DNA of 38,029 nucleotides from Anaerolineales bacterium (lineage in GTDB: Bacteria > Chloroflexota > Anaerolineae > Anaerolineales > Villigracilaceae). Positions 1,078 through 35,407 of this stretch are shown in pieces (the first letter of the stretch is position 1; each line of letters starts with the position of its first letter). The stretch is taken from positions 1 through 38,029 of the forward strand of contig JAFGKO010000367.1 of assembly GCA_016928525.1 (NCBI GenBank), read 5' to 3'. The translations under genes were made by a program, and so were the position numbers. The notes beneath the pieces were generated by a model, which saw only the letters and a program-made list of their open reading frames with translations, was not told the origin of the DNA and made no database searches.

Positions 1078-4000
1078 GTGAAAAAGTGGGCTGGGAAGCT
1101 GGTTGTGGGTTTGGGCGGGAGCGCCGGGACGGGGAAAGATGACGTCCAAAAAATGCTCGAAAGGTTGCAGGCTTTTACAATTGACGCGGATGAAATAGCG
1201 AACCGCGTTATTCTAAAGGGTGCTCCGGGGTACCAACCCATTGTAGAGAACTTTGGGGAGACGATCCTGGATCAAGGCGGTCAGATAGACCGGTCCAGGC
1301 TGTATCAATTTGTCCGTTCGGATCGTTTAGCCAGAGACAAACTGCAATCTATTATTGATCCGTTGATAAAACAGGCGACCGTCAGTTTGCTTCAACGGGC
1401 CAAACAATCGGTGGTCTTTATCAAGGCTACCAATTTGAGCCGCTTTGGACTGCTCGAGCTTTGTGATCAGGTGTGGGTCATTACTGCGCCTGAAGAAGTA
1501 CAGGTCTCTAACCTGGCCCGAAAAAAAGGTTGGAGCGCTGAGCAGGCTCAAGGATACATCCAGAAGCAACCGGAAATAGATGTCCAACTTGCGCATGCCG
1601 ATGTCGTTCTCTATAACAAGGGTTCGCGCGGCGTCCTGTGGAGACAGGTCACACAGGCTTGGGGAAAACTGGGGGAGGGCGACATTCCAGAGCAGAAACC
1701 ATCGGTTGATGCGGGAGCAGGCACAGGGTCCGCTTTGAGCCGCCTGCCCGCCCAGACACGAGACGTAGATACACCGCCCGTTCCACTTTCCAGAATTCCG
1801 GACATACAAACAGCATCCGTACCATCGACTGAGGGGGAGAAGGGTAGATTATCGGGCCTATCCGTCAGGGAACTTAGATTGATCGGTCGTCGTATTTTCA
1901 ATGTACTCTCGACCTTGCTGGTGATTGCCTATTTGACCTCCTGGGGTTTGATCCTGGCGGAACGTGGTCGCGAGCGACTACCTGCTCAACCCCTCCAGGC
2001 GGCCTGGCAGGCGTTGGTGCGGGTTGGAGATTACCTCGTCAATCACCCGCAGACTTATTACTGGCACAAAGATAATGTGGCTACGTTGCAAGTGGTATTT
2101 GAAACGCTAAAAGCCAGTGCGGGATTACTTTTGTTATCCATGGGCCTGGCACTGGCAATTGGTCTGCCGTTAGGTATCGCTGCAGCCTTGGCCAAACGAA
2201 AAACTTCCTCAGCACTCGTTATGCTTATATCAGTCCTGGGTGTTTCCACGCCAAGTTTTTTGTTTGCAATGTTTCTGTGGGTGGTGAATATCTGGGTGCA
2301 CCGTACGTTTGATATTCAAGTATTGCCCTCTGCCGGCTTTGGCTGGGATGCGCACCTGGTCATGCCGACCATTGTGTTGGCCATGCGCCCGTTGGCGCAG
2401 ATTGCGCAGGTAACCTATGTCAGCATGCGCGACATCCTGGGTCAGGATTATATCCGCACGGCGTATTCCAAAGGGCTGAACTGGCGCCTGGTTCGCAATG
2501 TGCATGCCCTTCCAAATATCCTCATTCCGACCCTGACCACGCTGGGCTCATCCCTGCGCTATTCCCTGGCCAGTTTGCCGGTCGTAGAAGTCTTCTTCTA
2601 TTGGCCGGGAGTCGGTCTGATGTTGCTAGACGCCATCCAGCAGGGGAATGCTGCGCTCGTTACTGACCTGATCTTGTCGCTCGGACTTTTCTTCCTGTTC
2701 GTCAACCTGGTGATCGAGTTCTCCTTCCCGTTGATCGATCCGCGCCTGCGCGGCGATGCGGATACGGAGGAGAAGGGAGACCAGGGTACTTTCCTGGGCT
2801 GGATACAGGAAGTTGGCAACACACTTTCCGCCTGGGCGCGCGACCTGCGCCAGCGCTTCACCGCTCGGACCTCGGACCTGCCTCCGCTTCCAAACGGTCT
2901 GAACCTGCTCCCGGTCGATAAGGAGCAGCCCGGGGCAGAGCGCCGTCGCTGGTTGTTGCGCAATTTTCTAAGTAACCCCGCCTTCATCTTGGGATCTGTG
3001 CTGTTGGTTGCCCTTTTGGTGGGAGTGCTCTTTGGTGAGCAGTTTGCCTCTACCAGTCCCTATCAGGCACACGGCGTCATGACGATTAACGGTAAGATCG
3101 GCGCGCCGCCTTATGAACCCTCTTCGGTCTTCCCCTGGGGTACGGATCACATCGGGCGCGATATTCAGGCGCTCGTTCTGGCGGGCGGCAAACGGACGTT
3201 GACGCTGGCTTTCTTTGGAATGTTGGCGCGTCTGCTACTGGGTGCAACCTTGGGGATCCTGGCGGGCTGGCAGCGAGACGGCTGGTTCGACCGGCTGGTC
3301 ACTGGTGCAGTGGGTGTATGGGCGGCTTTCCCGGTCACGTTGTTTGCCATGATCTTGATCCAGGCCCTGGGCATTCAACAAGGTATGTGGGTCTTCATCG
3401 TCGCCATATCTGTGGTGGGGTGGGGCGAAGTGGCGCAATTTGTACGCGGACAGGTCATTACTTTGAAGCCGCAACTGTTTATCGAATCGGCCCGCTCGGT
3501 TGGTTCACGCCCCGATCAGATATTAGTGCGGCACATCATCCCGAATCTGGTGAATTCGCTGATCGTCCTGGCTGCCCTGGAAATGGGCGGGGTCCTGATG
3601 TTATTGGCCGAGTTGGGCTATCTGAATATTTTCATGGGCGGCGGGTTCCGGGCTATGATTGGTGAGGCAGGCCGCATGATGCCGGTCATAGCTACTTACT
3701 CGGACGTACCCGAATGGGCGGCTTTGATCGCAAACGTGCGCCAGTACTGGCGCAGCTATCCATGGATGGCCTTATATCCCGGCCTGGCAGTGTTCCTTAC
3801 TATCATGACCTTCAACCTGTTTGGGGAGGGACTGCGCCGCTTCCTAGATGACACCTACTCTAACTTAAGTCGTTTATTCAACCGCTATACACTAATTGGG
3901 GCAGTTGGCCTCGCAGTGGTCGTAGCCCTGGTTCTACAATCGTCAGTGCCATTGAACGTTTATCGCCCGGAAGGCTTGAAATTCGACGAAAAGCGCGTTA

Positions 4001-5373
4001 TGCAGGATATCGAGAATTTGTCTTCTCCTCAGATGCAAGGACGCGAGACTGGCATGCCTGGTGCGACCATGGCAGCTATATATATTGCCTATCGCATGTC
4101 AGAAATTGGCATTTTCCCTGCCGGAGAACATAACACTTATTTACAGCATTTGGTGCAACCACGTATACATCTATTTGAGACCCCCACGCTGACCATTTTG
4201 GATGAATCCGGCCGGCCTCTCAAACAACTGACCTACAAGCGCGATTTTACTGAGTTTGCCCGTTCTGCTGGAATGTACGGAGATGAACAGGCTCCCATCA
4301 TGGGTGTCGCCTATGGTCCGACGTTGGATCCATCCTTGAACGACGAGTATGGATTGAGCAACAGCGCAGCTATGGATCACATCGTGATCGTACATGCCGA
4401 GGATATTGAGAAGGTCAACCCACAACAGTTGAAGGGGATTCTAGTGATTGCAGATGAAAGCCTCTCGCTGGACCACCGGGAGGTGTATCCATACAATGTA
4501 TTGGTGTTTGGGCCACCGGGATCACAAAACCGCACAGTTAAACCATATATGCTCATCTCTCCTGAAGTGGCCGATTCTTTACTGAAAACAGCCAGCAGCA
4601 GCCTGGCGGAACTGGATGCCCTCCGGGAAACCCTGGAACCGGGTCAGATGCGGTTGACCGCAGAAGGGGCGCGGGTCAGTTTGTCTCTGCAGCCGCGCAG
4701 GGCAGACGACTATCTTGATGAGAAATACATCAATGTCATGGGGGTGATCCCCGGGCAAGGACATTTCATGGGGATGGAAGAACAGGTCATCATTGTCAGC
4801 GCCTATTACGACGGCTTGGGCACTGACCTGACGGGAACGGTTTATCCCGGCGCAAATGACAATGCCAGTGGCGTGGCGATGATGCTGGAACTGGCGCGTT
4901 TGATGAAGGAAAGTGTCTATCAGCCCGATAAAACGGTTCTGTTCGTGGCCTGGGCAGGCGGTGAACGCCAGGAAGGCTTGAGTGTAGTCAATGTGCTTAA
5001 TGCGCGCCCCGGTGCGAGTGAGTTGACTGTGGAGACGGTCATCGAACTTTCTGGCGTGGGTTATGGAACAGGGAGTTCGATCAACCTGGGCAATGACAGC
5101 AGCTATCGCCTGGTCAAGCTCTTCCAGGAAGCGGCCGGCCGTTATAACTTGCCGACTACCACGCGCGGGCGAAACCCGCATTATGGGCTGCCTCTCCCTA
5201 CGGCGTTCGGCGGGCGCGATGCCATGACCCTGTCCATTTCCTGGGATGGCTCAGATTCACTCGCGCACACTCCCAAAGATATAGCTGCCATCATTGATCC
5301 GGCTAAATTATATGATATCGGTCGTACGACCTATTTGACCTTGCTGGTTCTCAGCCGTGAGACAGAGTATTGA
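1078..5373 (+). CDS. CoaE-like / DppB-like / DppC-like / M28-like fusion protein
   Basis: One uninterrupted 1431-residue frame joins four parts. Residues 1-200 resemble dephospho-CoA kinase: P-loop GGSAGTGK at 13-20, DAD at 36-38, then the typical GxIDRxxL region. However, the P-loop Lys is followed by Asp rather than Ser/Thr, and the usual His-Pro is Asp94-Pro95. A Pro/Ser-rich linker (about 200-260) leads to a DppB-type permease (about 265-560) with its ATPase-coupling loop near DYIRTAYSKGL. A DppC-type permease (about 630-950) carries the WGTDHIGRD segment. Residues 955-1431 resemble an M28 zinc peptidase with altered metal ligands: Tyr1243 for His, Asp1261 kept, Gly1295-Glu1296 for Glu-Glu, Ser1325 for Asp, His1397 kept. 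GTG start with GAGG upstream. No ATPase or binding protein for a peptide transporter lies nearby. The permease halves look intact; both terminal enzymes look degenerate. Transport role inferred. Confidence 0.85.
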   Translation: MKKWAGKLVVGLGGSAGTGKDDVQKMLERLQAFTIDADEIANRVILKGAPGYQPIVENFGETILDQGGQIDRSRLYQFVRSDRLARDKLQSIIDPLIKQATVSLLQRAKQSVVFIKATNLSRFGLLELCDQVWVITAPEEVQVSNLARKKGWSAEQAQGYIQKQPEIDVQLAHADVVLYNKGSRGVLWRQVTQAWGKLGEGDIPEQKPSVDAGAGTGSALSRLPAQTRDVDTPPVPLSRIPDIQTASVPSTEGEKGRLSGLSVRELRLIGRRIFNVLSTLLVIAYLTSWGLILAERGRERLPAQPLQAAWQALVRVGDYLVNHPQTYYWHKDNVATLQVVFETLKASAGLLLLSMGLALAIGLPLGIAAALAKRKTSSALVMLISVLGVSTPSFLFAMFLWVVNIWVHRTFDIQVLPSAGFGWDAHLVMPTIVLAMRPLAQIAQVTYVSMRDILGQDYIRTAYSKGLNWRLVRNVHALPNILIPTLTTLGSSLRYSLASLPVVEVFFYWPGVGLMLLDAIQQGNAALVTDLILSLGLFFLFVNLVIEFSFPLIDPRLRGDADTEEKGDQGTFLGWIQEVGNTLSAWARDLRQRFTARTSDLPPLPNGLNLLPVDKEQPGAERRRWLLRNFLSNPAFILGSVLLVALLVGVLFGEQFASTSPYQAHGVMTINGKIGAPPYEPSSVFPWGTDHIGRDIQALVLAGGKRTLTLAFFGMLARLLLGATLGILAGWQRDGWFDRLVTGAVGVWAAFPVTLFAMILIQALGIQQGMWVFIVAISVVGWGEVAQFVRGQVITLKPQLFIESARSVGSRPDQILVRHIIPNLVNSLIVLAALEMGGVLMLLAELGYLNIFMGGGFRAMIGEAGRMMPVIATYSDVPEWAALIANVRQYWRSYPWMALYPGLAVFLTIMTFNLFGEGLRRFLDDTYSNLSRLFNRYTLIGAVGLAVVVALVLQSSVPLNVYRPEGLKFDEKRVMQDIENLSSPQMQGRETGMPGATMAAIYIAYRMSEIGIFPAGEHNTYLQHLVQPRIHLFETPTLTILDESGRPLKQLTYKRDFTEFARSAGMYGDEQAPIMGVAYGPTLDPSLNDEYGLSNSAAMDHIVIVHAEDIEKVNPQQLKGILVIADESLSLDHREVYPYNVLVFGPPGSQNRTVKPYMLISPEVADSLLKTASSSLAELDALRETLEPGQMRLTAEGARVSLSLQPRRADDYLDEKYINVMGVIPGQGHFMGMEEQVIIVSAYYDGLGTDLTGTVYPGANDNASGVAMMLELARLMKESVYQPDKTVLFVAWAGGERQEGLSVVNVLNARPGASELTVETVIELSGVGYGTGSSINLGNDSSYRLVKLFQEAAGRYNLPTTTRGRNPHYGLPLPTAFGGRDAMTLSISWDGSDSLAHTPKDIAAIIDPAKLYDIGRTTYLTLLVLSRETEY

Positions 5374-10411: not shown

Positions 10412-12199
10412 CTACAAATAAGTCGCCTCTGCAAACTTGCGATTGAAGTTTGGTACTTTGGCCAGTTCGACGTAACCGTCGCGCTGAGCGATCTGGGCGG
10501 CCATTTCCCGCTCGGTTTTAGAAATGAGCGCCAAACGAGCTCCAGTCCCGGCAGCGTTGCCAACCTGCTTGAAGCGTTCCAAGGGCAAATCTGGCAGCAT
10601 GCCGATGGTGATGGCGCTTTCCACGTCGATGAAAGTGCCAAATGCACCGGCGATGATGACCTGTTCGAGATCATCTTCAGACAACCCTTCAGCCTCCACA
10701 AGGGCCTGGATGCCCAGGCGAATAGCGGCCTTGGCAAGTTGCAACTCACGCACGTCTTTTTGTGAGATGGTGATCGGGTCCAACTCCGGCCGCTCGGCCA
10801 ACACAAATTCTTTCGAATCATTTTGGGTACGGACAAAGGGGTGTGATCCCATTTTTCCACCGCGATCGACGACATTATTTATGCGCAATTGTGCGACAAC
10901 GTCCAGCAGACCCGAACCACAAATACCTACTGGGGCTTCCCCGCCGATGGTCTGGATTTCCAAGCGATCATTTTCTAACCGCACATGCTCAATGGCCCCG
11001 GGCGCGGCGCGCATCCCGAACTTGATGTGCGCCCCCTCGAACGCCGGACCGGACGCGCATGAGACACTGGTCATCCGGCCCTTATGGTTGAGACAAATCT
11101 CGGTATTTGTGCCGATGTCGATTGCCAGGACTGTCGCTTTGGCCTCGGCAATGCGGGTGGCGAGCAGCATGGCGACATGGTCTGCGCCGACGTAACCGGC
11201 TATATTTGGTAAAAGATGCACATATGCGCCGGGGGCGATTTGCAAGCCGATTTCTCGCGCCTTGATGTCCAGGGCAGTATCGACGGCAGGTACGTAAGGA
11301 GACAGGCCCAACTGCTTGACCGGCAACCCTAAGAATAGATGATGGATGGCGGTGTTGCCGACAACAACTGTATCAACAACATCAATCGGTTTTGCGTCGA
11401 TTTCGGCGCACAGGTCGGCGGCAAGTTGACTGAGGGCGTCAGTAAGCAATGTTTGCAGGCGGGCGGAATCCGCTGGAGATTTACTGGCAGCCACGATGCG
11501 CGAAACCACGTCTTCACCATAGGAGATTTGCGGGTTCATCAGGCCTTTGGAAGCCAGGGTTTTGCCGCTTTCCATATCGATTAAATAGCCCGCGATCTTG
11601 GTTGTGCCGATATCGACTGCCAGACCCAGCCAGCGCGTGGACGGAGCGCCTATCGCCACGATTTCATTTCCGCGCAGGGCAACCCGTACATGCCAGTCAT
11701 TATCGCGGATTTGATGTGACAGGGTTTGCTGGACGCGGAAATCAATCGTCCCGGCTTCGATGCCTTGTGCGGCAAGGGCCGCCCAAAGGTTCTGGGCATC
11801 TGCCTGCGGGGATTCAAGCGTGGGCGGAGTCAGATGCGCATCCAGTCCGCGGATGAGAGGATCAGGTGCCACGTCTACATCCAACCCTTCGATTTGAGTA
11901 CGCTGGAGTGCGGTTAGCGATTCAGGTGGTACATGCAGTTTGACGTTGCTTTGTGGGTAAGTCATGCATGCCAGACGATATCCCTGCTCAATTTCATCGG
12001 CAGTCAGTGAAGCTTCTTCTTCGAGGGTTAGCTTGGAGACCTGCCCGGAAATTACCTGCACCTTGCAGCGTTCACAACTGCCCACGCCGCCACATATGCT
12101 GACAAGGTCGACGCTCAGCTGACGGGCGCAATCGAGCAAAGATTGTTCGCCGGTAAATTGCCCGCGCCGCCCGACTGGTTCGAAGTCTATATCAAACAA
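10412..12199 (-). CDS. RACo-like reductive activator of corrinoid protein
   Basis: A 595-residue iron-sulfur ASKHA protein. It uses ATP to drive the low-potential reduction of oxidised Co(II) corrinoid proteins back to Co(I). The N-terminal ferredoxin-like domain binds a [2Fe-2S] cluster through Cys36, Cys42, Cys45 and Cys78 (C-x5-C-x2-C...C). A linker region (about 90-185) leads to the actin-like ATPase with LAVDIGTTKIAGYLID, a second phosphate loop (AIDIGTNTEICL) and GAFGTFID near the C-terminus. The TTG start has AAGGAG seven bases upstream. It is transcribed away from the island, whose corrinoid protein (17110) and methyltransferase are its likely clients. Length and domain order fit the RACo/RamA-related DUF4445 family. 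Confidence 0.93.
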   Translation of the reverse strand: MFDIDFEPVGRRGQFTGEQSLLDCARQLSVDLVSICGGVGSCERCKVQVISGQVSKLTLEEEASLTADEIEQGYRLACMTYPQSNVKLHVPPESLTALQRTQIEGLDVDVAPDPLIRGLDAHLTPPTLESPQADAQNLWAALAAQGIEAGTIDFRVQQTLSHQIRDNDWHVRVALRGNEIVAIGAPSTRWLGLAVDIGTTKIAGYLIDMESGKTLASKGLMNPQISYGEDVVSRIVAASKSPADSARLQTLLTDALSQLAADLCAEIDAKPIDVVDTVVVGNTAIHHLFLGLPVKQLGLSPYVPAVDTALDIKAREIGLQIAPGAYVHLLPNIAGYVGADHVAMLLATRIAEAKATVLAIDIGTNTEICLNHKGRMTSVSCASGPAFEGAHIKFGMRAAPGAIEHVRLENDRLEIQTIGGEAPVGICGSGLLDVVAQLRINNVVDRGGKMGSHPFVRTQNDSKEFVLAERPELDPITISQKDVRELQLAKAAIRLGIQALVEAEGLSEDDLEQVIIAGAFGTFIDVESAITIGMLPDLPLERFKQVGNAAGTGARLALISKTEREMAAQIAQRDGYVELAKVPNFNRKFAEATYL

Positions 12200-12425
12200 T
12201 GCAAATCTCCTTGTCGTAAGAGGGTGAGCAAAAAGAGAGTCCCAAGTATACCCAAACTTTTACCGCCATCGAACTTTTACGACTCTTCGGGAATTTCCGG
12301 CCCCCCTTCACGGCAAATCCTAAAGAAAACCACTTTTACCATCCAGTCGCTGAGCTACACTTGCCAGGAATACAACAAATAAAATGACCCAATGGACAAA
12401 TTACCTGATGAAAACAATTTTTAAG

Positions 12426-12454
12426 TTGACAAACCGCATAAAACTCTCTATACT
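12426..12454 (+). promoter_or_regulatory. Consensus sigma70-type promoter of the catabolic island
   Basis: TTGACA at 12426-12431 and TATACT at 12449-12454 are separated by exactly 17 bases. The start point would fall near 12461, giving a leader of about 44 bases to the ATG at 12505. It is the best promoter in the window. Confidence 0.8.
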
Positions 12455-12478
12455 GAATATGTTCAGTGAATGCGTTCA
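12452..12478. promoter_or_regulatory. Tandem palindromic operator overlapping the start point
   Basis: Two TGAA-N4-TTCA palindromes, at 12454-12465 and 12467-12478, lie 13 bases centre to centre. The first extends to perfect 6-base arms (ACTGAA...TTCAGT, 12452-12467). They overlap the -10 end and the predicted start point, the ideal place for a repressor. The TetR protein encoded at 29666 is the obvious candidate, which is inference. Confidence 0.65.
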
Positions 12479-12504
12479 TTTTGGTATGCTCGGGAGTTTA
12501 CTAC

Positions 12505-13971
12505 ATGGACGATAAGAAAGCAAGACTGAAAGATATTGTAGGGGATGGGGGAATTTTGCCAGGGCCGAAATTTAGTGATTCCTATTCATTAGATTACAAT
12601 CTAATTAAACCATTGCAACCATGTTTCGAGGTCAAACCCAAGAATGTAGAGGAGGTCCAAAAGATCGTACTTTGGGCAAATGAGACTCAGACTCCCCTGG
12701 TGCCAGTCAGTTCAGGCGGCCCACATTTCCGAGGCGATACATACCCAACAGCGCCTGAAGCTGTCATGGTGGATTTGCGTGGAATGAACCATATCCTGAA
12801 AATCGACCGACGCAACCGGCTGGCGCTGATCGAGCCGGGCGTAACCTTTAGCCAGCTTCTACCCGAACTTCGGAAGGAAGGCCTGAGAATTGTCATGCCG
12901 CTTCTGCCTCGGGGCAATAAATCGGTCATTGCCAGCTTGCTGGAGAGGGAACCGGTGATGTCGCCGAGGTACCAGTGGAACCTGGTTGAACCATTGCGCA
13001 GTCTTGAGATCGTCTGGGGCAACGGCGATAAATTCTACAGTGGCAGTGGAACCTTGCGTGGGGAAAAAGACGAGGACTGGCAGGCAGGCTTGGTGCCAGT
13101 AGTAGGGCCTGGGCCGGGTCAACTGGATTACAACAAGTTTGTCTCGGCTGCACAGGGCAGCATGGGCATTGTCACTTGGGCTTCCGTAAAGTGTGAAGTT
13201 TATCCACAAACGCGGAAGCTCTTTTTTATCCCTGCGGAGAAACTCGAAGATTTAATCGACTTTACCTATAAACTGCTCAAATTCAGATTTGGGGATGAGC
13301 TTTTCATCGTCAATAACACCTGTCTGGCAAATATCTTAGGAAATTCAGCGGCTGAGATTGAAGCCTTGAAAAATGGATTGCCGGCCTGGACGGTTGTTGT
13401 GGGGATTACTGGCGGCGACATTCTGCCTGAAGAGAAACTCGCTGCGCAGGAGGCTGATATCTGCGATATTGCCCAGCAGCACGGATTGCGGATGGTGCCT
13501 GCCCTGCAGGGCATCCGCGGCGATGAACTGCTGGATGTTATCCTGCAACCCTCGCCTGAGCCATACTGGAAGTTGAGAGACAAAGGCGGATCGCAGGATA
13601 TCTTCTTCTTGACCACTCTGGATAAAACCCCTCGCTTCATCACTACGCTGTTTGCTGCTGCCAATGAAAGAGGTTATCCGGTCCCGGACATTGGCATTTA
13701 CCTTCAACCGGTACACCAGGGAGTCGGCTGCCACTGTGAGTTCATTCTCCCGTTCGATCGGGCGAACCAGGCTGAAGTACGAAAGACGCAGGAATTATTC
13801 CGAGAAGCCAGCCAAAGACTGTTCAAGCAAGGAGCCTATTTTTCACGACCGTATGGGATCTGGGCTGATATGGTCTACAACGCGGATGCACGTACCATGC
13901 TTGTGACGAAAAAAATAAAAGATATTTTCGATCCCAAGCATGTGATGAACCCCGGAAAACTCTGCTTTTAA
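12505..13971 (+). CDS. FAD-linked oxidase (GlcD/VAO-like), first of two
   Basis: A 488-residue PCMH-type flavoprotein. The N-terminal half carries the FAD-binding pattern: EVKPKNVEEVQKIVLWANE, then the VPVSSGGPHFRGD loop and a conserved ALIEPGVTFSQL strand. The C-terminus ends with IKDIFDPKHVMNPGKLCF, the usual end of GlcD and vanillyl-alcohol-oxidase relatives. It probably oxidises a hydroxy acid or hydroxylated side chain and passes electrons to the Fe-S protein encoded next. The ATG at 12505 is preferred over the in-frame GTG at 12466 because it has GGGAG ten bases upstream, and the GTG lies only about five bases from the predicted transcription start. Substrate not predictable from sequence. 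Confidence 0.88.
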   Translation: MDDKKARLKDIVGDGGILPGPKFSDSYSLDYNLIKPLQPCFEVKPKNVEEVQKIVLWANETQTPLVPVSSGGPHFRGDTYPTAPEAVMVDLRGMNHILKIDRRNRLALIEPGVTFSQLLPELRKEGLRIVMPLLPRGNKSVIASLLEREPVMSPRYQWNLVEPLRSLEIVWGNGDKFYSGSGTLRGEKDEDWQAGLVPVVGPGPGQLDYNKFVSAAQGSMGIVTWASVKCEVYPQTRKLFFIPAEKLEDLIDFTYKLLKFRFGDELFIVNNTCLANILGNSAAEIEALKNGLPAWTVVVGITGGDILPEEKLAAQEADICDIAQQHGLRMVPALQGIRGDELLDVILQPSPEPYWKLRDKGGSQDIFFLTTLDKTPRFITTLFAAANERGYPVPDIGIYLQPVHQGVGCHCEFILPFDRANQAEVRKTQELFREASQRLFKQGAYFSRPYGIWADMVYNADARTMLVTKKIKDIFDPKHVMNPGKLCF

Positions 13972-14074
13972 AGTGCAAGTACCCGGACAGTATGATTGTG
14001 ATTGGTAAAGTTTCTCTACGCTAAAGAAATACCCATCAATCAAAGGTACTCTTTTCGGGCACAAGGAGCAAAAA

Positions 14075-15331
14075 ATGGCATTGGAAGATTTCGCAGCCGA
14101 AATGGATCGTTGCAGTTCATGTTCTTACTGTAAGTGGATTCCATTCGACCAGATAAAGAGCTGGCGTTTTGCCAAGAATTGCCCTAGCATTGCTTATCAC
14201 AATTTCAATAGTTACTCTGCGCGCGGCCGCTATCTGGTGGCCCGTTCGTTGCTTAATGGACGAAGTGATTATAGTGATACGGTACGCCGGGTTGTGAACA
14301 CCTGTCTGACCTGCGGATCGTGCGATGTGAGTTGCAAAGTCTGTCGCTACAACCTCGAGCCCCTGGAGATGGTTCGCGAGCTCAAATTCAACCTGGTAGA
14401 AGACGGGCAACGCCTCGATGAACACTTGGCTATTATCGAAAGCCTGCATAAAGAGAGCAATACCATGGGGGCGGCCAAGAGCGGAAGGGGAGCCTGGGCC
14501 AAGGATCTTAAGGTTAAACATCTCCCTGATGAGCAGGCCGAAGTGCTCTTTTTTGCCGGCTGCCGGATCAGTTATGATGAAGAATTGCAGCAGAATGCGC
14601 AAGCCGCCGTACGAATTCTTTTGGATGCCAGGGTAGACCTTGGAATCCTGGGAGAAAATGAGATGTGTTGTGGCGGGCGGATTTATTCGATGGGCTATCG
14701 AGATGACTTCACCCGTTTGGCAAAATCCAATATGGCAATTTGGGCAAAAGCTGGCATCAAAACCGTGGTGACTTCCTGCTCGGATGGCTATCACGCTTTC
14801 AAGCGCCTTTATCCGAAACTTGGATCCGAAGTGGAAGTGTTGCATATCGTAGAATACATTGATCGACTGATCAAAGAAGGCCAGCTCAAGTTCAGCAAGG
14901 AAGTCCCGCTGACTGTCACCTATCACGACCCCTGTCACCTGGGTCGCCAGGGGGAACCCTATGTCCCTTGGGATGGTGTTGAAAAGAAGATCAAGAACCA
15001 GATCGTCGTCTATGAACCAAAGAGGCCCAGATACAATGGCGCCTGGGGTATCTACGATCCGCCGCGTGATATTCTCAAGAGTATTCCCGGTGTGGAGTTG
15101 GTCGAGATGGAGCGCATCCGGGAATATAGCTGGTGCTGTGGAGCCGGAGGTGGTGTGCGGGAGGCCTATCCTGAGTTTTCCACTTGGACTGCCAATGAAC
15201 GGATCACGGAAGCCAAGACCACTGGAGCCGAGGCACTGGTCACTGCTTGCCCGTGGTGTGAACGGAATTTCTTGGACGCTGGCGGAATGAAAGTCCTGGA
15301 CATCATCGAGCTTGTCCAGCAGGCATTATAG
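14075..15331 (+). CDS. CCG-domain iron-sulfur oxidoreductase (GlcF/HdrD-like)
   Basis: A 418-residue electron-transfer protein. The N-terminus has cysteine clusters (CSSCSYCKW, then CLTCGSCDVSCKVC) resembling paired [4Fe-4S] ligands, although the first cluster is unusual in spacing. Two CCG domains follow: FFAGCRISYD...CCGG in the first, and YHDPCHLGRQ...WCCGAGGG plus a late TACPWCERNF in the second. Such proteins connect FAD oxidases to quinones or to other carriers (GlcF, LutA, HdrD). It is encoded between two FAD-linked oxidases with short gaps (103 and 12 bases), which strongly suggests one complex. AAGGAG precedes the ATG. The electron acceptor is unknown. Confidence 0.9.
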   Translation: MALEDFAAEMDRCSSCSYCKWIPFDQIKSWRFAKNCPSIAYHNFNSYSARGRYLVARSLLNGRSDYSDTVRRVVNTCLTCGSCDVSCKVCRYNLEPLEMVRELKFNLVEDGQRLDEHLAIIESLHKESNTMGAAKSGRGAWAKDLKVKHLPDEQAEVLFFAGCRISYDEELQQNAQAAVRILLDARVDLGILGENEMCCGGRIYSMGYRDDFTRLAKSNMAIWAKAGIKTVVTSCSDGYHAFKRLYPKLGSEVEVLHIVEYIDRLIKEGQLKFSKEVPLTVTYHDPCHLGRQGEPYVPWDGVEKKIKNQIVVYEPKRPRYNGAWGIYDPPRDILKSIPGVELVEMERIREYSWCCGAGGGVREAYPEFSTWTANERITEAKTTGAEALVTACPWCERNFLDAGGMKVLDIIELVQQAL

Positions 15332-15343
15332 GGGAGGATACAG

Positions 15344-16996
15344 ATGACACTTCCCAAGAACGTGTATGAAGCGTTGGAAGATATTGTCGGCAAAGTGAAT
15401 ATTTCCGACGACCCGGCGGTGCTCGATTCGTATCGCTATTCCCTTGCTCATACTGCCATCCACCTGGGACCGCATTACAACACCTTTACACCCAGGGGGG
15501 CAGCGGTCCTTATGCCGGGCAGCACTGAGGAAGTCCAGGCCATTGTCAAATTGTGCAACAAATACAAAATAAAATTCAAGGCCTCCAGCACCTTCTGGTC
15601 TGCCCAGGGATACCCGTCTGAAGAGGATACGATCCAGTTAGATATGCGGCGGATGGATCGCATCCTTGAAATCGATGAGAAGAACATGTACGCGGTGGTG
15701 GAGCCGGGTGTGATCTCGGCCACGCTCCAGGCCGAGACAATGAAAGTCGGCCTGAACACGCACATCGCTGGCTCCGGCTGTAGTTGCTCGGTATTAGCCA
15801 GCGCTACATCGTATTTCGGCTCTGGTCCCGGTAACCTGTATGGGGGCTGGTTCTATGACAACTTGCTGGGTATGGAATGGGTGATGCCCACCGGGGAGAT
15901 TTTCCGTACCGGTTCGCTGGGCTCCGATTGTGGCTGGTTTTGTGGCGAAGGTCCTGGGCCCAGTATGAAAGGCGTTGCTCGGGGTTTCCTGGGTGCCAAA
16001 GGCTCGATGGGTGTCTTCACCAAATGCGCGGTCAAATTGTTTGCCTGGCCCGGACCGGAGTCGCTTCCTGTAGATGGCATTATTCCTGCATATAAGGCAA
16101 ACCTCCCGGATAACTTCAAAGCTTATACCCTGGCTTTCCCATCCTGGAAAGCGTGGGCTGATGCTGTGTATGCAATTTGGGATGCTGGCATTGGCTACCT
16201 TGGCCATCGTCAATTCAATATGTTTGGCCGCGATCTCAAATTTGCTATGGTGAAAATCCTTACCGATCCCACCAAGACCCTGGAAGACCTGGAAGAATTG
16301 CTCGAAGACCCGCAAGTGCAGGAAGTGACTGAACAATCGCAACGGGATTTCCAGCTTGTCCTGGTTGGCATGACCTCTCGCGATATGGCCTGGCAGGAGA
16401 AAGCCCTGGATGAGATTTTAGCCCTTACTGGCGGCTGGAAAGTAGAAGCCATGAATGTGCCAGAGATTCACGATTGGGCTTTGCTATACCTGCTCCGATT
16501 AGGGCACAAAAACTTGAACCTGGTCTTTGGCGGTTCCTATGATGGTTGTTTCGGTTTTCCCGGCTCGGCTGACTTTGGGGCGTCCAATGCTGAAGAAGCG
16601 GGACAGTTTAAAAAGGAATGGGAGCAACACGGGGCAATCGTGGAGGCCGGTGGCGACTGTATGATGGGACCAATTGGGGGCCAGGGAGGAGGCGGTACCT
16701 GTCTGTGGGAGAATTTCACTTGCTTTGATCCACATGATCGCTTCTCAACCGAGGGAACCCTGGAATTCTTCGACGCGGCAACCGAGTATGGTATTAAACG
16801 TGGCTGGGGTGTCGGTATGGAGAAATGGAACTCTGTCGCCCGGGGTTCTGATGGCAAGACAACCCCCAAAGAAGAGCGAGATAAGATGCACTTGGCTGCC
16901 CCGCAGCCCAACGTTTTCCGTTATCAGCATAAAGTCAGAGAAGCTTTAAATCCAAACCATCTGGGAGATGAATACTTCGAGACACTGGAGGATTAA
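15344..16996 (+). CDS. FAD-linked oxidase, second of two
   Basis: A 550-residue flavoprotein, longer than the first. It shows the PCMH pattern: VLMPGSTEEVQAIVKLCNKY near residue 55, AVVEPGVISATLQAE near 123, and a glycine-rich loop SYFGSGPGNLYGG (about 155-167) where FAD-binding oxidases usually have their pyrophosphate loop. The tail NPNHLGDEYFETLED replaces the usual NPGK ending, so it differs from a standard GlcD. Its ribosome site is strong (GGGGAGG). With the Fe-S protein and the first oxidase it forms an FAD / Fe-S / FAD triad similar in plan to GlcD-GlcF-GlcE, but both flavoproteins here are full length. Confidence 0.88.
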   Translation: MTLPKNVYEALEDIVGKVNISDDPAVLDSYRYSLAHTAIHLGPHYNTFTPRGAAVLMPGSTEEVQAIVKLCNKYKIKFKASSTFWSAQGYPSEEDTIQLDMRRMDRILEIDEKNMYAVVEPGVISATLQAETMKVGLNTHIAGSGCSCSVLASATSYFGSGPGNLYGGWFYDNLLGMEWVMPTGEIFRTGSLGSDCGWFCGEGPGPSMKGVARGFLGAKGSMGVFTKCAVKLFAWPGPESLPVDGIIPAYKANLPDNFKAYTLAFPSWKAWADAVYAIWDAGIGYLGHRQFNMFGRDLKFAMVKILTDPTKTLEDLEELLEDPQVQEVTEQSQRDFQLVLVGMTSRDMAWQEKALDEILALTGGWKVEAMNVPEIHDWALLYLLRLGHKNLNLVFGGSYDGCFGFPGSADFGASNAEEAGQFKKEWEQHGAIVEAGGDCMMGPIGGQGGGGTCLWENFTCFDPHDRFSTEGTLEFFDAATEYGIKRGWGVGMEKWNSVARGSDGKTTPKEERDKMHLAAPQPNVFRYQHKVREALNPNHLGDEYFETLED

Positions 16997-17109
16997 TGGT
17001 TGGAGTCCTTGATCTTCTGATGTAGAATATTAATGTCCCCAGAAAAGGTAAATGTTGCGGTCATAATCTGGCCGAACAAAAATAATTTTCAAGAAAGGAG
17101 AAGTGGAAC

Positions 17110-17742
17110 ATGTCGGAAGAACTGATAAAAGCCATCACTGAAATGCGCGAAGAAGATGCTCTAAAAATCACTCAGGATATGCTTGATGCGGGATCTTCAC
17201 CGCTCGATGTCCTCGATGCGTGCCGTAAGGGCCTGGATGCGGTGGGGAAATGCTTCGAGGAGGGCACCTATTTCTTGCCTGAACTGATGCTGGCTGGCGA
17301 GATGATGAACCAGATTACGGAGATCATCAAGCCCAAGCTGGCCGAGCTGCCGGATAGAGAGCGCCAGGGCAAAGTACTCATTGGCACTGTCCAAGGAGAT
17401 ATCCACGATATCGGCAAGAATATTGTGAGCTTCATGCTGGATGTTAACGGCTTTGAAGTCCTCGACCTGGGTGTGGATATTCCCCCGCAAAAATTCGTAG
17501 ACGCTATTCAGGATTTCCAACCGCAGGTTGTCGCTCTCAGCGGATTCCTTACCCTGTCCTTTGACGCTATGAAAAACACAGTGGCAGCCATCGAATCCGC
17601 CGGCCAACGGGACAAGGTCAAGATCATGATCGGTGGGGGTCAAATCAACGAGGAAGTAAAAGAATATGCTGGTGCTGATGGCTATGGTAGAGATGCCGTG
17701 GCCGGAATATCCTTGGCTAAAAAATGGGTTGGCGTCAATTGA
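17110..17742 (+). CDS. Corrinoid (B12-binding) methyl carrier protein
   Basis: A 210-residue protein of the MtbC/MttC/MtaC type that shuttles a methyl group on cobalt between methyltransferases. Residues 1-85 form the helical cap (B12-binding-2). The cobalamin domain follows, with the lower-ligand motif D97-x-H99-x-x-G102 in QGDIHDIGKN, then SGFLTLSF near 144-152 and IGGGQ near 174-178. It lies 30 bases before the methyltransferase gene and seven kb from the RACo-like activator needed to keep its cobalt reduced. AAGGAG precedes the ATG. The pair is the core of a substrate-specific demethylation system. Confidence 0.95.
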   Translation: MSEELIKAITEMREEDALKITQDMLDAGSSPLDVLDACRKGLDAVGKCFEEGTYFLPELMLAGEMMNQITEIIKPKLAELPDRERQGKVLIGTVQGDIHDIGKNIVSFMLDVNGFEVLDLGVDIPPQKFVDAIQDFQPQVVALSGFLTLSFDAMKNTVAAIESAGQRDKVKIMIGGGQINEEVKEYAGADGYGRDAVAGISLAKKWVGVN

Positions 17743-17772
17743 TAACCCTCAGCAGAGAATTCGGAGGAAAAA

Positions 17773-19116
17773 ATGACACAACAATTGACAAAAGAAGAAA
17801 AGTTTGAGGCGATATGGCAAGGGAAGCTCTCGCCAAAGGGTCCTGATGGGAACCCGCTTCCGTTCCAGTCTCCGGAAGCGGAAAAGGCATACAAGGATCG
17901 GATACTCAGGTTCAAAGATGCAATCGAGATGAAAAAGCTGCCGGACAGAGTTCCGGTTACGGTCTTTCCCAGCATGTTTCCTTGGAAAAACGCCGGGATG
18001 ACCGTTGAAGAGGCCATGTACGATTATGGCAAATGTGCCGAAGTCTTTCAGAATTTCGTGCTCGAGTTGGAACCGGATATGCATTGGGGTGCATACGCAC
18101 CCGGTTCGGGGAAGATGTATGAAATCCTGGACTATAAACTCTACTCCTGGCCAGGCCATGGGGTTTCGCCGGAATACTCCTACCAAGCCAATGAAGGCGA
18201 ATACATGCTGGCGGATGAATATGATGCCTTGATCCAGGACCCATCGGGTTACTTCACCCATGTATACCTGCCACGCGTGTTCGGCGCATTAGGTGGATTT
18301 CCGATGCTGCCGTTTCTCCCCGGCATCCTCGAAATTTACGGCCTTCCCCTCTTCTTCATCCCCTTTGGGCTGCCCCCAGTACAGGCAACCTATCAGGCCC
18401 TTTTTGAGGCCGGTGCTGAGGCGCTGAAATGGGTAGGCCCCATAGGTGGTGCTGACGGTGTGTTAGCCACGCACGGGTTTCCGACCGTATTGGGTGGATT
18501 CACCAAGGCGCCGTTCGACGTCATTGGCGATACATTGCGTGGTACCAAGGGGATCATGCTGGATATCCACCGGCGACCCGATAAGCTCATCAAGGCTATG
18601 GAAGCTTTGGTGCCGCTTATGATCGGTATGGGTATTGCCAACGCGCGACAGACCGGCAATCCCTTAATATTCATTCCTCTTCATAAAGGGGCAGATGGCT
18701 TCATCTCAGATGAGCAGTTCAAGAAATTCTTCTGGCCGACTCTAAGAGAAGTCATTTTGGGCTTAATAGAGGAAGGGATTGTTCCACTTCCTGCGCTTGA
18801 AGGATACTGGAATACGCGACTGGAAGTTATTCAGGATGTTCCAAAAGGCAAGAGCGTATGGATGGTCGACCAGTCAGATATGGTCAAGGCCAAGAACACT
18901 CTGGGCAAGAATGCCTGCCTGCTTGGCAACGTGCCCTCCTCCATGTTGAATTTGGGCACCCCTCAGGATGTGAAAGCCTATGTAAAGAATGTCATCGACA
19001 CTGCCGGCAAAGATGGTGGCCTCATCATCTGCAATGGGGCTTTCTTTGACGAAGCCAAGCTGGAAAATGTCAAGGCGATAGTTGAGGCTACCAAGGAGTA
19101 CGGCGAATACAAATAA
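17773..19116 (+). CDS. Uroporphyrinogen-decarboxylase-fold methyltransferase
   Basis: A 447-residue TIM-barrel protein of the family that includes MtaA and MtbA. The C-terminal part is typical: GNVPSSMLNLGTPQDVKAYVKN at 385-406, then GGLIICNGAFFDEAKLENVKAI. The His-x-Cys...Cys zinc motif of the archaeal enzymes is absent: the equivalent stretch reads ALEGYWNTRL (341-350), placing Glu343 where the first cysteine would be, and Cys420 is two residues off the usual position. It is therefore not heme biosynthesis and not a canonical MtaA. It follows the corrinoid protein directly, with GGAGG before the ATG, so it most likely moves a methyl group between the substrate and the corrinoid. The direction and the substrate are inferred. 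Confidence 0.88.
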   Translation: MTQQLTKEEKFEAIWQGKLSPKGPDGNPLPFQSPEAEKAYKDRILRFKDAIEMKKLPDRVPVTVFPSMFPWKNAGMTVEEAMYDYGKCAEVFQNFVLELEPDMHWGAYAPGSGKMYEILDYKLYSWPGHGVSPEYSYQANEGEYMLADEYDALIQDPSGYFTHVYLPRVFGALGGFPMLPFLPGILEIYGLPLFFIPFGLPPVQATYQALFEAGAEALKWVGPIGGADGVLATHGFPTVLGGFTKAPFDVIGDTLRGTKGIMLDIHRRPDKLIKAMEALVPLMIGMGIANARQTGNPLIFIPLHKGADGFISDEQFKKFFWPTLREVILGLIEEGIVPLPALEGYWNTRLEVIQDVPKGKSVWMVDQSDMVKAKNTLGKNACLLGNVPSSMLNLGTPQDVKAYVKNVIDTAGKDGGLIICNGAFFDEAKLENVKAIVEATKEYGEYK

Positions 19117-19133
19117 TATGTTTTTCAGGGGAA

Positions 19134-19188
19134 CCGGCTTGATAGGCTTTGCACAAAACTGCCATAGAAACCAAGCCTATCAAGCCGG
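19134..19188. repeat. Perfect 16-base inverted repeat between methyltransferase and alcohol dehydrogenase genes
   Basis: CCGGCTTGATAGGCTT at 19134-19149 is exactly complementary to 19173-19188, with a 23-base loop. No T-run follows on either strand, so a classical terminator is unlikely. It may stabilise or process the mRNA, or be a protein-binding site. Confidence 0.75.
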
Positions 19189-19225
19189 GGGGATTAACAT
19201 CAATGTTTGTTTTCGGGAGGAACAA

Positions 19226-20323
19226 ATGGAAATAAAAGCGGCGGTTGTTTTTGAGCGGGCGGGAGAATTCAAAATTGAAAACTTGGAACTCAGCGAACCA
19301 AGGGATGATGAGGTAGTGGTTCGAGTAGTCGCTACCGGTATTTGTCACACTGACCTGGCAGCACGGGCCGGGCATTTACCGATCCCGGCTCCGCCGAGTG
19401 TTTTCGGACATGAAGGAGCTGGTATTGTGGAAAAAGTGGGAGCGCGCGTGACCAAAGTAAAACCGGGCGACCATGTAGTTCTTGGCTGGGACTACTGCGG
19501 AACATGTCCACCATGTAAGCAAGGCAAGGAACTCTATTGCCTGAATTTCTTCCTGCACAATTTCCACGGCGCTCGCCCGGATGGCACTACAACCTTGCGA
19601 AAAGGTGATCAGGAAATCCATGGTTCATTCTTCTGCCAGTCATCCTTTGCCGATTATGCACTCGCCAACGAACGCAATGTCGTCAAAGCGCGAGATGATA
19701 TTCCCCTCGAAATCCTGGGTCCCATGGGATGTGGAGTAATGACAGGCGCTGGCGCAGTGATGAATGCACTTCAAGTCAAACCAGGGTCATCCATTGCCGT
19801 ATTTGGCGTTGGCCCGGTGGGGATAAGCGCAATTTTAGCTGCAGTGGTGTGTGGTTGTACTACTATCATCGCTGTTGATATCAAACCTGAGCGGCTCAAA
19901 GCGGCCAAGGAATTGGGCGCTACTCATACTGTTAACGCATCGGAGGTTGACCCAGTTAAGGCGATTCTCGATATCACCAATGGGGGGCCGGAATTCAGTC
20001 TCGAGTGCGTCGGCAATCCTAAGGTGTTGCGACAGGCTGTGGACGTGCTTCCCCGCCTGGGAGTGTGCGGTCTTACGGGCGTCGTGCCTCCTGGCACGGA
20101 AGTCAGCCTGGACATGGATCTGATCATGAATGGCCGAGCAGTTAGGGGAATACTTGGAGGCGATGCAATCGCGGATCTGTTTATTCCCAAGCTGGTTGAG
20201 CTATATCTCCAAGGACGGTTCCCATACGACAAGATGATCACGTTCTATCCCTTCGAAGAGATCAACCGGGCTGTAGAAGATATGGAAAAAGGGTTGGTGG
20301 TCAAACCGGTTTTGCGCATGTAG
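19226..20323 (+). CDS. Zinc alcohol dehydrogenase, aryl-alcohol type
   Basis: A 365-residue medium-chain dehydrogenase. The catalytic zinc site shows Cys40 in TGICHTDL and GHEGAG (His62, Glu63). The structural zinc site has four cysteines in DYCGTCPPCKQGKELYC. The NAD(P) Rossmann loop is GVGPVG. Segments HGSFFCQSSFADYALANERNVVK and LGPMGCGVMTGAGAVMNAL closely match the benzyl/aryl alcohol dehydrogenase subgroup (XylB-like). The ATG at 19226 with GGGAGG eight bases upstream is chosen over longer in-frame starts. It would oxidise an alcohol to an aldehyde for the AOR encoded 31 bases downstream. Confidence 0.93.
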   Translation: MEIKAAVVFERAGEFKIENLELSEPRDDEVVVRVVATGICHTDLAARAGHLPIPAPPSVFGHEGAGIVEKVGARVTKVKPGDHVVLGWDYCGTCPPCKQGKELYCLNFFLHNFHGARPDGTTTLRKGDQEIHGSFFCQSSFADYALANERNVVKARDDIPLEILGPMGCGVMTGAGAVMNALQVKPGSSIAVFGVGPVGISAILAAVVCGCTTIIAVDIKPERLKAAKELGATHTVNASEVDPVKAILDITNGGPEFSLECVGNPKVLRQAVDVLPRLGVCGLTGVVPPGTEVSLDMDLIMNGRAVRGILGGDAIADLFIPKLVELYLQGRFPYDKMITFYPFEEINRAVEDMEKGLVVKPVLRM

Positions 20324-20354
20324 TGACTAGTATTAATCGATAACGGAGGCAAGC

Positions 20355-22076
20355 ATGAAGTTTGTCAGAGTAAACATGACGGATAAGACCATCAAAGTTG
20401 AAGATGTGTCGCCGGAATATGCCGGGCTAGGCGGCAGGGGCCTGACTTCGATCATGATCAACAATGAAGTTCCGCCGGAATGTGATCCCCTGGGACCAGA
20501 GAACAAGCTCATCTTTGCCCCTGGTTTCCTAACCGGTACTTCGTTGGTGAACACCAGCCGTATATCTGTTGGCGCTAAAAGTCCGTTGACGGGTGGCATC
20601 AAGGAGAGCAACGCGGGTGGGTCTATAGGCGCCTCTTTGGGACATCTGGGCATTACAGCGATTATTGTTGAGGGACAAGCATCGGACGGGGATCTCAGCC
20701 TGCTCCGCATCGATGCGCAGGGTGAAGCAAGACTGGTGCCGGCTCAGGAATATCGGGGCTTACGCACCTACGCATTAGCAGAAAAGCTGTTGACTGTTTA
20801 TGGCGAGAAAAATTCGATCATGTGCATCGGGCCGGCGGGTGAATATCAGTTGGCTTCGGCCTCGATCCAATCGACAGATGTCGATGGGCGTCCTTGCCGG
20901 GCTGCTGGCCGCGGTGGCATGGGAGCAGTAATGGGTGCCAAAGGGCTTAAAGCGTTGGTTGTCGACCAACGTGGAAAGGCCCTCGATGCCATCGCCGATC
21001 CACGAGCTTTCAAAGAAGCAACTAAAATCGTTGTTGAAGCGGTCAAAGCAGACCACATGAGTGCGGAAGTGATGCCTGCCCTTGGTACTGCTGCCCTGGT
21101 AGCCCCAGTCAATGCAATGGGCGCCTTCCCCAGTTATAACGCCACCAAAGGTCAATTGGATGGTTGGGAGAAGATCAGCGGGGAGGCAATGGCTGAGATC
21201 ATCAAAGAACGTGGAGGAAACACCACCCATCGGGGCTGTGACCAGTGCATGATCCATTGTTCTAACATCTACGTGGATAAAGACGGTAAATTTATCACCG
21301 GGTCTTTGGAATACGAGACCATTTGGGCCACAGGCGGCATGACCGGCATCACCGACCTGGACGTGATCGCTCGCCTCGACAACCTGTGCGACGATATTGG
21401 GCTCGACACGATGAACACTGGGGTGGCCGTCGCCGTCGCCATGGATGCTGGGTATAGAAAGTTTGGGGATGCCGAAGCAGCTATCGCGATGGTAGAAGAA
21501 ATCGCCAGGGGGACGGAATTTGGCCGCATCCTGGGCAATGGTCCGGCCGCAGTGGGTGAGCATTTCAACCACCCCCGCGTACCAGTGGTCAAACGACAAA
21601 GCATCGCAGCTTACGACCCGCGTGGCATGTTAGGCAACGGCGTTACCTACGCTACCTCCCCAATGGGCGCTGATCACACGGCAGGTAACGTGGTTGGGGC
21701 TTACCTGGAGCGGAAACTCGATCCACTGAACCCGGAAGGCCAGACTGACACCTCCAGGTTTTTGCAGATCGCCATGGCCGCCTTCGATTGCATGGGTCAA
21801 TGTTTCATGGCGAGTGTGGCCTTGCTGCATCCCGATGGCTTCGGCGCGTTCCAAAGACTGATTGAGGCTAAAACGGGCGCGCAATTCGAAGAGGGTTATT
21901 TTCCCTTCGGGATGGGCACTCGCATCTTAATGGCTGAGAAGGAGTTCAATAGAAAAGCAGGCTTAACGAAGCAAGATGATCGCCTGCCTCGCTTCTTCTA
22001 TGAGGAACCCCTGCCTCCGCACAATAAGGTTTTTACGATCAGCGACGAAGAGTTGGACAAGGTCTTGGAATTCTAG
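20355..22076 (+). CDS. Aldehyde:ferredoxin oxidoreductase, first of two
   Basis: A 573-residue tungsten or molybdenum bis-pterin enzyme that oxidises aldehydes to acids with ferredoxin as acceptor. The N-terminal AOR domain shows GLGGRGLTS, DPLGPENKLIFAPG and the SRISVGAKSPLTG segment. The [4Fe-4S] ligands are Cys295, Cys298 and Cys302 (C-x2-C-x3-C), with a fourth from Cys479 or Cys483. It is followed after 11 bases by a MoaD-like gene and preceded by the aryl-alcohol dehydrogenase, whose aldehyde product it can take. GGAGG precedes the ATG. Slightly shorter than the second AOR in this window. Confidence 0.95.
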   Translation: MKFVRVNMTDKTIKVEDVSPEYAGLGGRGLTSIMINNEVPPECDPLGPENKLIFAPGFLTGTSLVNTSRISVGAKSPLTGGIKESNAGGSIGASLGHLGITAIIVEGQASDGDLSLLRIDAQGEARLVPAQEYRGLRTYALAEKLLTVYGEKNSIMCIGPAGEYQLASASIQSTDVDGRPCRAAGRGGMGAVMGAKGLKALVVDQRGKALDAIADPRAFKEATKIVVEAVKADHMSAEVMPALGTAALVAPVNAMGAFPSYNATKGQLDGWEKISGEAMAEIIKERGGNTTHRGCDQCMIHCSNIYVDKDGKFITGSLEYETIWATGGMTGITDLDVIARLDNLCDDIGLDTMNTGVAVAVAMDAGYRKFGDAEAAIAMVEEIARGTEFGRILGNGPAAVGEHFNHPRVPVVKRQSIAAYDPRGMLGNGVTYATSPMGADHTAGNVVGAYLERKLDPLNPEGQTDTSRFLQIAMAAFDCMGQCFMASVALLHPDGFGAFQRLIEAKTGAQFEEGYFPFGMGTRILMAEKEFNRKAGLTKQDDRLPRFFYEEPLPPHNKVFTISDEELDKVLEF

Positions 22077-34961: not shown

Positions 34962-34972
34962 GTTAGCACGAG

Positions 34973-35260
34973 ATGAAAGTTACCCTTCACACGATTTTGG
35001 GAATTAAAGAGGTCATCGGCCAACGACTGACCGAAATCGAACTTCCCAATGGTTCGACAATAGAGAATTTCCTTTCGTACTTGAAGGAAAGGTGGGGAAA
35101 TGGGCTATCCAACCGCCTTTTTCACCCCGATAACGACGCCGTTCTTCCTTATGTACGGATCATGGTCAACGGGCAGACCATTGACTTTCTTGAAGGCATG
35201 GAGACGCCCCTTAAGGAGGGAGATGAAGTCCTGATCCCGCCGCCTGCCTCTGGCGGGTAG
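34973..35260 (+). CDS. MoaD/ThiS-like small protein paired with the second AOR
   Basis: A 95-residue beta-grasp protein ending PPASGG, with the conserved LKEGDEVLIPPPASGG strand and tail. It is longer than the first MoaD-like protein and has a different core, but the same position after an AOR gene. A GAG element lies close to the ATG and the gap to the AOR stop is only 11 bases, so translational coupling is likely. Confidence 0.87.
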   Translation: MKVTLHTILGIKEVIGQRLTEIELPNGSTIENFLSYLKERWGNGLSNRLFHPDNDAVLPYVRIMVNGQTIDFLEGMETPLKEGDEVLIPPPASGG

Positions 35261-35323
35261 GTCCATGTGTACAGTGAAGGCCTACGCTGTCTATACCAAT
35301 ATATTGAATAGGAGCATGAAATC

Positions 35324-35407
35324 ATGGCATCCAATCCCACGAAAGTGGGCAAGAATCTATTAAGGAACAACATGAAAATGTATTCAAAAGGAGCTGGAAA
35401 TGTTTAA
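35324..35407 (+). CDS. Possible 27-residue leader peptide overlapping the thiolase start
   Basis: An ATG with GGAG about nine bases upstream opens a short frame that runs to a TAA eight bases inside the thiolase gene. Its sequence is basic (10 Lys/Arg/Asn-rich positions). A stable hairpin CCCAC-GAAA-GTGGG at 35335-35348 lies within it. This could couple translation or control the thiolase, or be chance. Not recognised. Confidence 0.3.
   Translation: MASNPTKVGKNLLRNNMKMYSKGAGNV

Follow-up and report, generated by a model that had tools for sequence, protein, structure and literature searches.

The stretch analysed here, 38,029 nucleotides of contig JAFGKO010000367.1 from an Anaerolineales bacterium (the window, below), contains an uninterrupted frame that runs from a GTG codon at position 1078 to a stop codon ending at position 5373 and encodes a protein of 1431 amino acids. 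In this protein, a domain similar to dephospho-CoA kinase (CoaE), two permease halves of the DppB and DppC types, and a domain similar to M28 peptidases follow one another. The same four parts had been proposed in a sequence-only reading of this DNA, and the open frame bears this out together with the Pfam matches, all above the cut-offs: CoaE at residues 8–183 (E 3.1e-32), BPD_transp_1 (PF00528) in two stretches (E 3e-43), and Peptidase_M28 at residues 1219–1418 (E 4.3e-17). The features of the frame are as follows.

1078..5373, + strand: four-part fusion frame, 1431 amino acids, GTG start (translation and Pfam)
1099..1626, + strand: CoaE-like pseudokinase domain, residues 8–183
1117..1140, + strand: altered P-loop, residues 14–21, Lys20 kept, Asp21 replacing Ser/Thr (residue comparison with separate CoaEs)
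1672..1869, + strand: fast-changing linker, residues 199–264 (low pairwise identity, 39 sequences)
1879..2751, + strand: DppB-like permease half, residues 268–558 (profile, alignment)
2956..3852, + strand: DppC-like permease half, residues 627–925 (profile, alignment)
3892..3948, + strand: extra membrane helix past the DppC fold, residues 939–957 (hydropathy; long helix in the structure model)
3955..5370, + strand: M28-type pseudopeptidase with a PA-like insert, residues 960–1431
4804..4806, + strand: Tyr1243, replacing zinc ligand His97 in AAP numbering (alignment to AAP)
4855..4863, + strand: Asn1260-Asp1261-Asn1262, Asp1261 being the kept bridging Asp117 (alignment to AAP)
4960..4965, + strand: Gly1295, replacing general base Glu151, followed by Glu1296, the kept Glu152 (alignment to AAP)
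5044..5046, + strand: Glu1323, equivalent of Asp179 by motif, without a printed pairwise alignment
5266..5268, + strand: His1397, equivalent of His256 by motif

Homologues were scored among the 7992 candidates sharing most words, 524 of which matched at E ≤1e-3. The best 120 of these 524, combined with 73 locus frames that are non-identical and no shorter than 540 amino acids (smaller ones being discarded, and any X in locus translations deleted, which took L007 from 1006 to 966 amino acids), form the set of 193 sequences considered below. Among the best 120, many proteins are four-part, with identity from 95% down to 54%, and many have the last three parts only. The fusion recurs: a CoaE-like front was found in 48 of the 193 sequences, on many contigs, 47 of them distinct (the L001 protein is identical to P0060). 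The other fronts are TPR (11 sequences), ABC ATPase (four), another domain (one), and none (129, a class that includes rows ended by contig edges). The TPR front is above a Pfam cut-off in L111 and below all cut-offs in L120; ABC_tran was identified in L114 (E 2.5e-30) and L115 (E 2.3e-15), and an ABC-2 membrane piece in L076 (E 5.8e-8). By eye, Walker A is present and the LSGGQ signature is missing in L114, and Walker A is missing in L115, L116, and L123; thus the ATPase, a second kind of front, has also lost motifs. The named hosts are metagenome-assembled genomes (MAGs) of Chloroflexi type, apart from a single Bipolaricaulota MAG and another that bears the label Thorarchaeota. For G001, a genome with a four-part gene, matches were obtained at E ≤1e-200 in 36 of 396 genomes from its class and at E ≤1e-60 in 40 of 400 from its order; in genome-based loci, the CoaE front is confined to L001 of G001, the other matches listed starting past query residue 210. 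The core formed by the DppB-, DppC-, and M28-like parts is a wider family than the CoaE-fronted fusion.

The pore is of the Opp/Dpp type. The conserved stretches of both halves align to the solved OppB, OppC, DppB, and DppC, the structural match is OppB (8z21), and the ABC permease domain together with conserved coupling stretches places the protein among Opp/Dpp permeases; no NCBIfam permease equivalog cut-off was reached by the best 25 of 30 matches. Many residues of these putative coupling stretches, which we take to be the motifs coupling the pore to its ATPases, are invariant in 20 relatives.

An additional hydrophobic helix, residues 939–957, follows the DppC fold, and thus the rear domain is predicted to lie outside the cell. 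By profile and fold it belongs to M28: M28 is its only profile match apart from a weak one to M20, the structural match is an M28 fold, and the length of the alignments to BSAP and to transferrin receptor 1 points to a PA-like insert. In the alignment to AAP, His97 is replaced by Tyr1243 and the general base Glu151 by Gly1295, and Asp99, Asp117, and Glu152 are kept; the bridging Asp117 corresponds to Asp1261, since the title of the D118N mutant 3b3t fixes the AAP numbering. Hence, the window protein lacks the complete set of five zinc ligands and a general-base Glu, and the two replacements rule out an active M28 peptidase. The sequence-only reading had recognized Tyr in place of the first zinc His and Gly in place of the first residue of the Glu pair; the Ser that it placed at the partner of the bridging Asp was an error, as this stretch reads PGANDNASG and the bridging residue is kept.

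None of the 180 scorable relatives (13 of the 193 rows with an empty column are omitted) has the full ligand-plus-base set, even if Glu is allowed at Asp179. His97 is retained in four of them, Asp117 in 166, Glu151 in two, Glu152 in 160, and His256 in 146; position 179 holds Asp or Glu in 157 (Glu in 147 of these), and Gly stands at the Glu151 position in 171. With Glu accepted at 179, two further rows possess all five ligands, yet their base position is occupied by Ala. Among the CoaE-fronted copies, 44 out of 45 scorable ones share one residue pattern, the remaining copy differing at Glu152. As the trio of Asp117, Glu152, and His256 is complete in 140 of the 180, one metal may still bind. 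Lineages adjoining opp operons mostly have Gln at His97, with His256 often gone too, and the trio is incomplete in 22 out of 25 rows of this Gln lineage. Mean pairwise identity among 39 fused sequences (L001_2, P0039, P0012, P0013, P0006, P0063, and those of at most 1350 amino acids being omitted) is 74.9% for the M28 catalytic lobe, 69.0 and 73.1% for the pore halves, and 53.5% for the M28 N-lobe with the insert. A useless relic would diverge, and the catalytic lobe matches the pore in conservation; judging by these residues and rates, the rear domain is thus a pseudopeptidase that is not decaying. Peptide binding or sensing by it is plausible.

The front domain shares the profile, length, and fold of CoaE: it passes the NCBIfam CoaE model (111.8 against a cut-off of 65.55) and is modelled with pLDDT 90.3. 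Its P-loop, GGSAGTGKD, has Asp directly after the Lys, and the motif IIDPLI has Asp at the place taken by the His of His-Pro in the separate CoaEs from 14 genomes, both as previously described for this sequence; in addition, Glu116 is changed to Lys and Arg145 to Asn. At the seven positions checked, which are presumably catalytic, the window thus reads K-D-D-D-P-K-N versus K-S-D-H-P-E-R in all 14 separate CoaEs; it does not follow the pattern of the host-group enzymes, and an active CoaE is ruled out on residues. All seven are intact in only one of the 48 fused copies, P0039. Across these copies, Lys20 is kept in 26, Ser/Thr21 in nine, Asp36 in 44, His94 in two, Pro95 in 39, and Glu116 and Arg145 in one each; Lys and Ser/Thr of the P-loop co-occur in six (three rows being gapped at the P-loop columns), Gly60 is kept in all 48, and Asp71 in 44. 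The replacements recur, Asn145 being found in 34 copies and Lys or Arg at 116 in 37. At the same time, alignments of the CoaE part to the window contain 0–1% gaps in pairs down to 35% identity, and its mean pairwise identity in the 39 fused sequences is 37.5%, compared to 17.3% in the linker (residues 199–258), which places the CoaE fold, though not its active site, under constraint.

Taken together, 47 out of 48 fused CoaE-like domains and 180 out of 180 scorable M28-like domains lack the catalytic set, in agreement with the earlier proposal that both terminal domains are non-catalytic. Relatives with intact catalytic residues, which would speak against this proposal, are absent among the scorable sequences for the M28-like part, and for the CoaE-like part are limited to P0039, a younger-looking fusion. 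The four-part genome G001 has its own separate intact CoaE (L042) besides the fused one, and CoaE matches occur in 58 of 60 further genomes that carry the core gene, being above the cut-off in 56. Separate CoaEs of this group are often frames of 380–400 amino acids with a C-terminal extension without a Pfam family (e.g., L042:922-2109).

Most relatives carry the core in a single chain, and in distant ones it is split into a DppB-like gene and a DppC–M28 gene (L012, L013, L016, L081, L082, L105). Split genes in close relatives had been named beforehand as a possible sign of an assembly join; the splits found here are in distant relatives and rather point to stepwise fusion. In quick trees of 114 rows, with SH-aLRT support alone and two long branches meeting, the CoaE label changes seven times, the TPR label eight times, and the ABC label once; the 14 CoaE changes of a later front-label tree are an overcount, P0025, P0027, P0053, P0056, and P0059 having no residues before the core. 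A single clade of all fused CoaE domains is not rejected (approximately unbiased test, p 0.219), and thus there were one to several CoaE fusions.

Residues 1–303 of P0039 align to an entire host-type CoaE with its C-terminal extension (L045) with 53% identity over 365 columns, the extension being gapped; the CoaE of P0039 is followed by a stretch resembling the start of unfused proteins (partly by eye) and groups with two separate CoaEs (support 88/95), so that P0039 looks like a younger fusion. In turn, P0019 and P0022 lie among fused relatives yet have no CoaE, and their starts resemble the P0011 linker (by eye); the same two genes, by eye pth and mfd, precede both the CoaE-bearing L001 and L004, which has no CoaE. 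From these cases, fronts seem to be gained and lost while the core stays. A CoaE gene directly upstream of an unfused core, a candidate donor, was sought by eye in 60 genomes, and none adjoins the core. Directly after the four-part gene of L001, positions 13992–15085 contain core-like pieces in several frames (matching query residues 266–482 and 1309–1429), apparently a decayed second copy that starts past the CoaE part.

Genes of Opp systems accompany some relatives. They were found in the fetched neighbourhoods of 11 out of 74 contexts (L006 and L101 being the same place), including L010 from the Bipolaricaulota MAG, with OppD in six, OppF in seven, OppB/C in nine, and the binding protein in ten. 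In L097, L098, and L100, the order is oppD, oppF, binding protein, oppB, oppC, a lipoprotein of ~590 amino acids, and the core gene; in L087, an ATPase pair lies ~5.7 kb from the core gene on the opposite strand. Beside the fusion in the window, there is no Opp-type binding protein. A check for an ATPase pair elsewhere in the genome had been recommended, and G001, the one genome examined with a four-part fusion, has six OppD/F-type matches, which form three pairs at a distance from the fusion; such ATPases occur elsewhere in the genome in five out of five genomes tested. The ~590-residue lipoprotein adjoins the core gene in ten of the 74 contexts (e.g., L097:6086-7846) and is a possible functional partner; in four copies scanned, no Pfam family was above the cut-off, and one weak GH43 match was below it.

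Taking all this into account, we propose, with roughly even confidence, that the protein forms the membrane component of an Opp/Dpp-type ABC transporter, its single chain supplying the two halves of the pore; the transporter would be driven by OppD/OppF ATPases and carry a tethered non-catalytic M28-type domain outside and a dispensable CoaE-type accessory inside. The fusion is taken to be energised, as the ATPase-contact stretches of OppB and OppC are conserved, and the power would come in trans from an OppD/OppF pair encoded elsewhere. The outward M28-type domain would not cut peptides but serve as a tethered binding or gating domain, capturing peptides, or a partner loaded with them, above the pore. 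Given the opp genes near relatives and the ATPase pairs of G001 away from the fusion, the protein may be a second pore for the OppD/F pair, gated or fed by the M28-type domain. The inward CoaE-type domain would be a host enzyme, captured and since deprived of catalysis, that persists as a cytoplasmic accessory, perhaps as a contact or assembly surface. Several observations weigh against this proposal. No Opp genes were detected in 63 of the 74 contexts by this test, in which contigs are often short, and no OppD/F gene stands beside the fusion in the window or in L001; confidence of the structure model is middling in the pore (mean pLDDT 76.2, pTM 0.51). The front domain changes more quickly than the other parts and is missing from many relatives, and hence it may have no function at all, and P0039 indicates that enzymatic activity may persist in one or more fused CoaEs.

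A front domain without a role is the core of another explanation, in which the fronts are evolutionary debris, i.e., upstream genes joined in frame by deletion and tolerated in the cytoplasm. This is unlikely. In its favour, P0039 shows just such a join, an intact-motif CoaE running straight into what is, by eye, the start of unfused relatives; CoaE, TPR, ABC-ATPase, and ABC-2 pieces all occur at the same place; and P0019 and P0022 have linker-like starts. The constraint on the CoaE fold relative to the linker argues against debris, as does the lack of any frame break among the fused copies collected, a collection that broken copies would have escaped. In a further reading, the front domain would be a nucleotide or CoA sensor regulating the transporter, a pseudokinase still binding ATP, dephospho-CoA, or CoA. 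Retention of Asp36, Gly60, and Asp71, the nearly gap-free and confidently modelled fold, and the common replacements at 116 and 145 are consistent with sensing; however, the P-loop pair survives in so few copies, His94 and Arg145 in fewer still, and the domain is replaced or dropped in relatives, close ones included, with unrelated domains in the same place, so that nucleotide sensing, suggested by the sequence-only reading, finds no backing and the sensor is improbable.

For the rear domain, we considered a still active enzyme that uses a single metal and an altered chemistry, e.g., glutaminyl-cyclase-like or a hydrolase using Tyr1243. The surviving metal trio would leave room for it, but Glu151, needed in glutaminyl cyclases too, is Gly almost throughout the family, and the lineage with Gln at His97 loses further ligands, which makes a remaining enzyme very improbable. 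Finally, the source record is probably metagenomic, which could have produced the frame as an assembly or binning artefact; the recurrence of the same front in dozens of distinct sequences from many contigs rules out a join within 1078..5373, and the artefact is practically excluded.

The transporter proposed here has parts that are known singly, and it is classified by its pore, as an Opp/Dpp-type transporter rather than a CoaE or an M28 peptidase. With OppBC and DppBC permeases it shares both pore halves, the family profile, and the conserved stretches, and differs from them in having both halves in one chain and domains at both ends; in contrast to Opp systems, no Opp-type ATPase or binding protein lies beside it in the window. 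Unlike M28 aminopeptidases with a PA domain (BSAP/YwaD), it has the first zinc His and the base Glu replaced and is predicted to be membrane-anchored to a pore, and unlike the non-catalytic M28 relatives transferrin receptor 1 and nicalin, it is bacterial and joined to an ABC pore. In the ABC importers GlnPQ and OpuA, a domain outside the cell is covalently linked to the pore (PMC8025302, PMC11065425). The fusion would resemble these importers in this respect, its placement outside being predicted from helix 939–957, but their domain is a classical binding protein, and that of the fusion has an M28-type fold outside the classical substrate-binding proteins. Among open-access titles and abstract beginnings, a corpus that most subscription journals fall outside, no ABC permease–M28 or CoaE–permease fusion was found named. 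An anti-phage defence role was rejected, with no PADLOC family matching at E ≤0.01.

Elsewhere in the window, a protein of 198 amino acids without a Pfam family is encoded upstream of the fusion on the minus strand (92–688). Positions 10412–22076 and 33084–36590 contain genes for RACo (a corrinoid-protein activator), an FAD-linked oxidase, a URO-D-like methyltransferase, two aldehyde ferredoxin oxidoreductases, and a thiolase, which look like anaerobic methyl-group or acid metabolism. The window has no tRNA and no Rfam match at the gathering score.

Some proteins of the family are named dephospho-CoA kinase in source databases, and the window domain passes the NCBIfam cut-off, although 58 out of 60 genomes with family members carry a separate CoaE match; automatic metabolic reconstructions could be misled by such labels. 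The series from P0039 (intact) through L001 and P0049 (partly changed) to the window clade (His94, Glu116, and Arg145 changed) offers a view, dated by the tree, of how an essential enzyme would turn into a pseudoenzyme after fusion. The outer part is retained across relatives, and the inner one is exchanged or lost, a pattern suggesting that transporters can recruit dead enzymes as components. If the rear domain binds peptides, substrate delivery to ABC importers would not be limited to the classical binding-protein fold, and a peptidase fold would act as a receptor. Tentatively, this may be a widespread family in which a dead aminopeptidase serves as a built-in peptide receptor and a front slot repeatedly takes unrelated proteins that then lose catalysis and keep the fold, so that housekeeping enzymes would be seen turning into transporter parts step by step.

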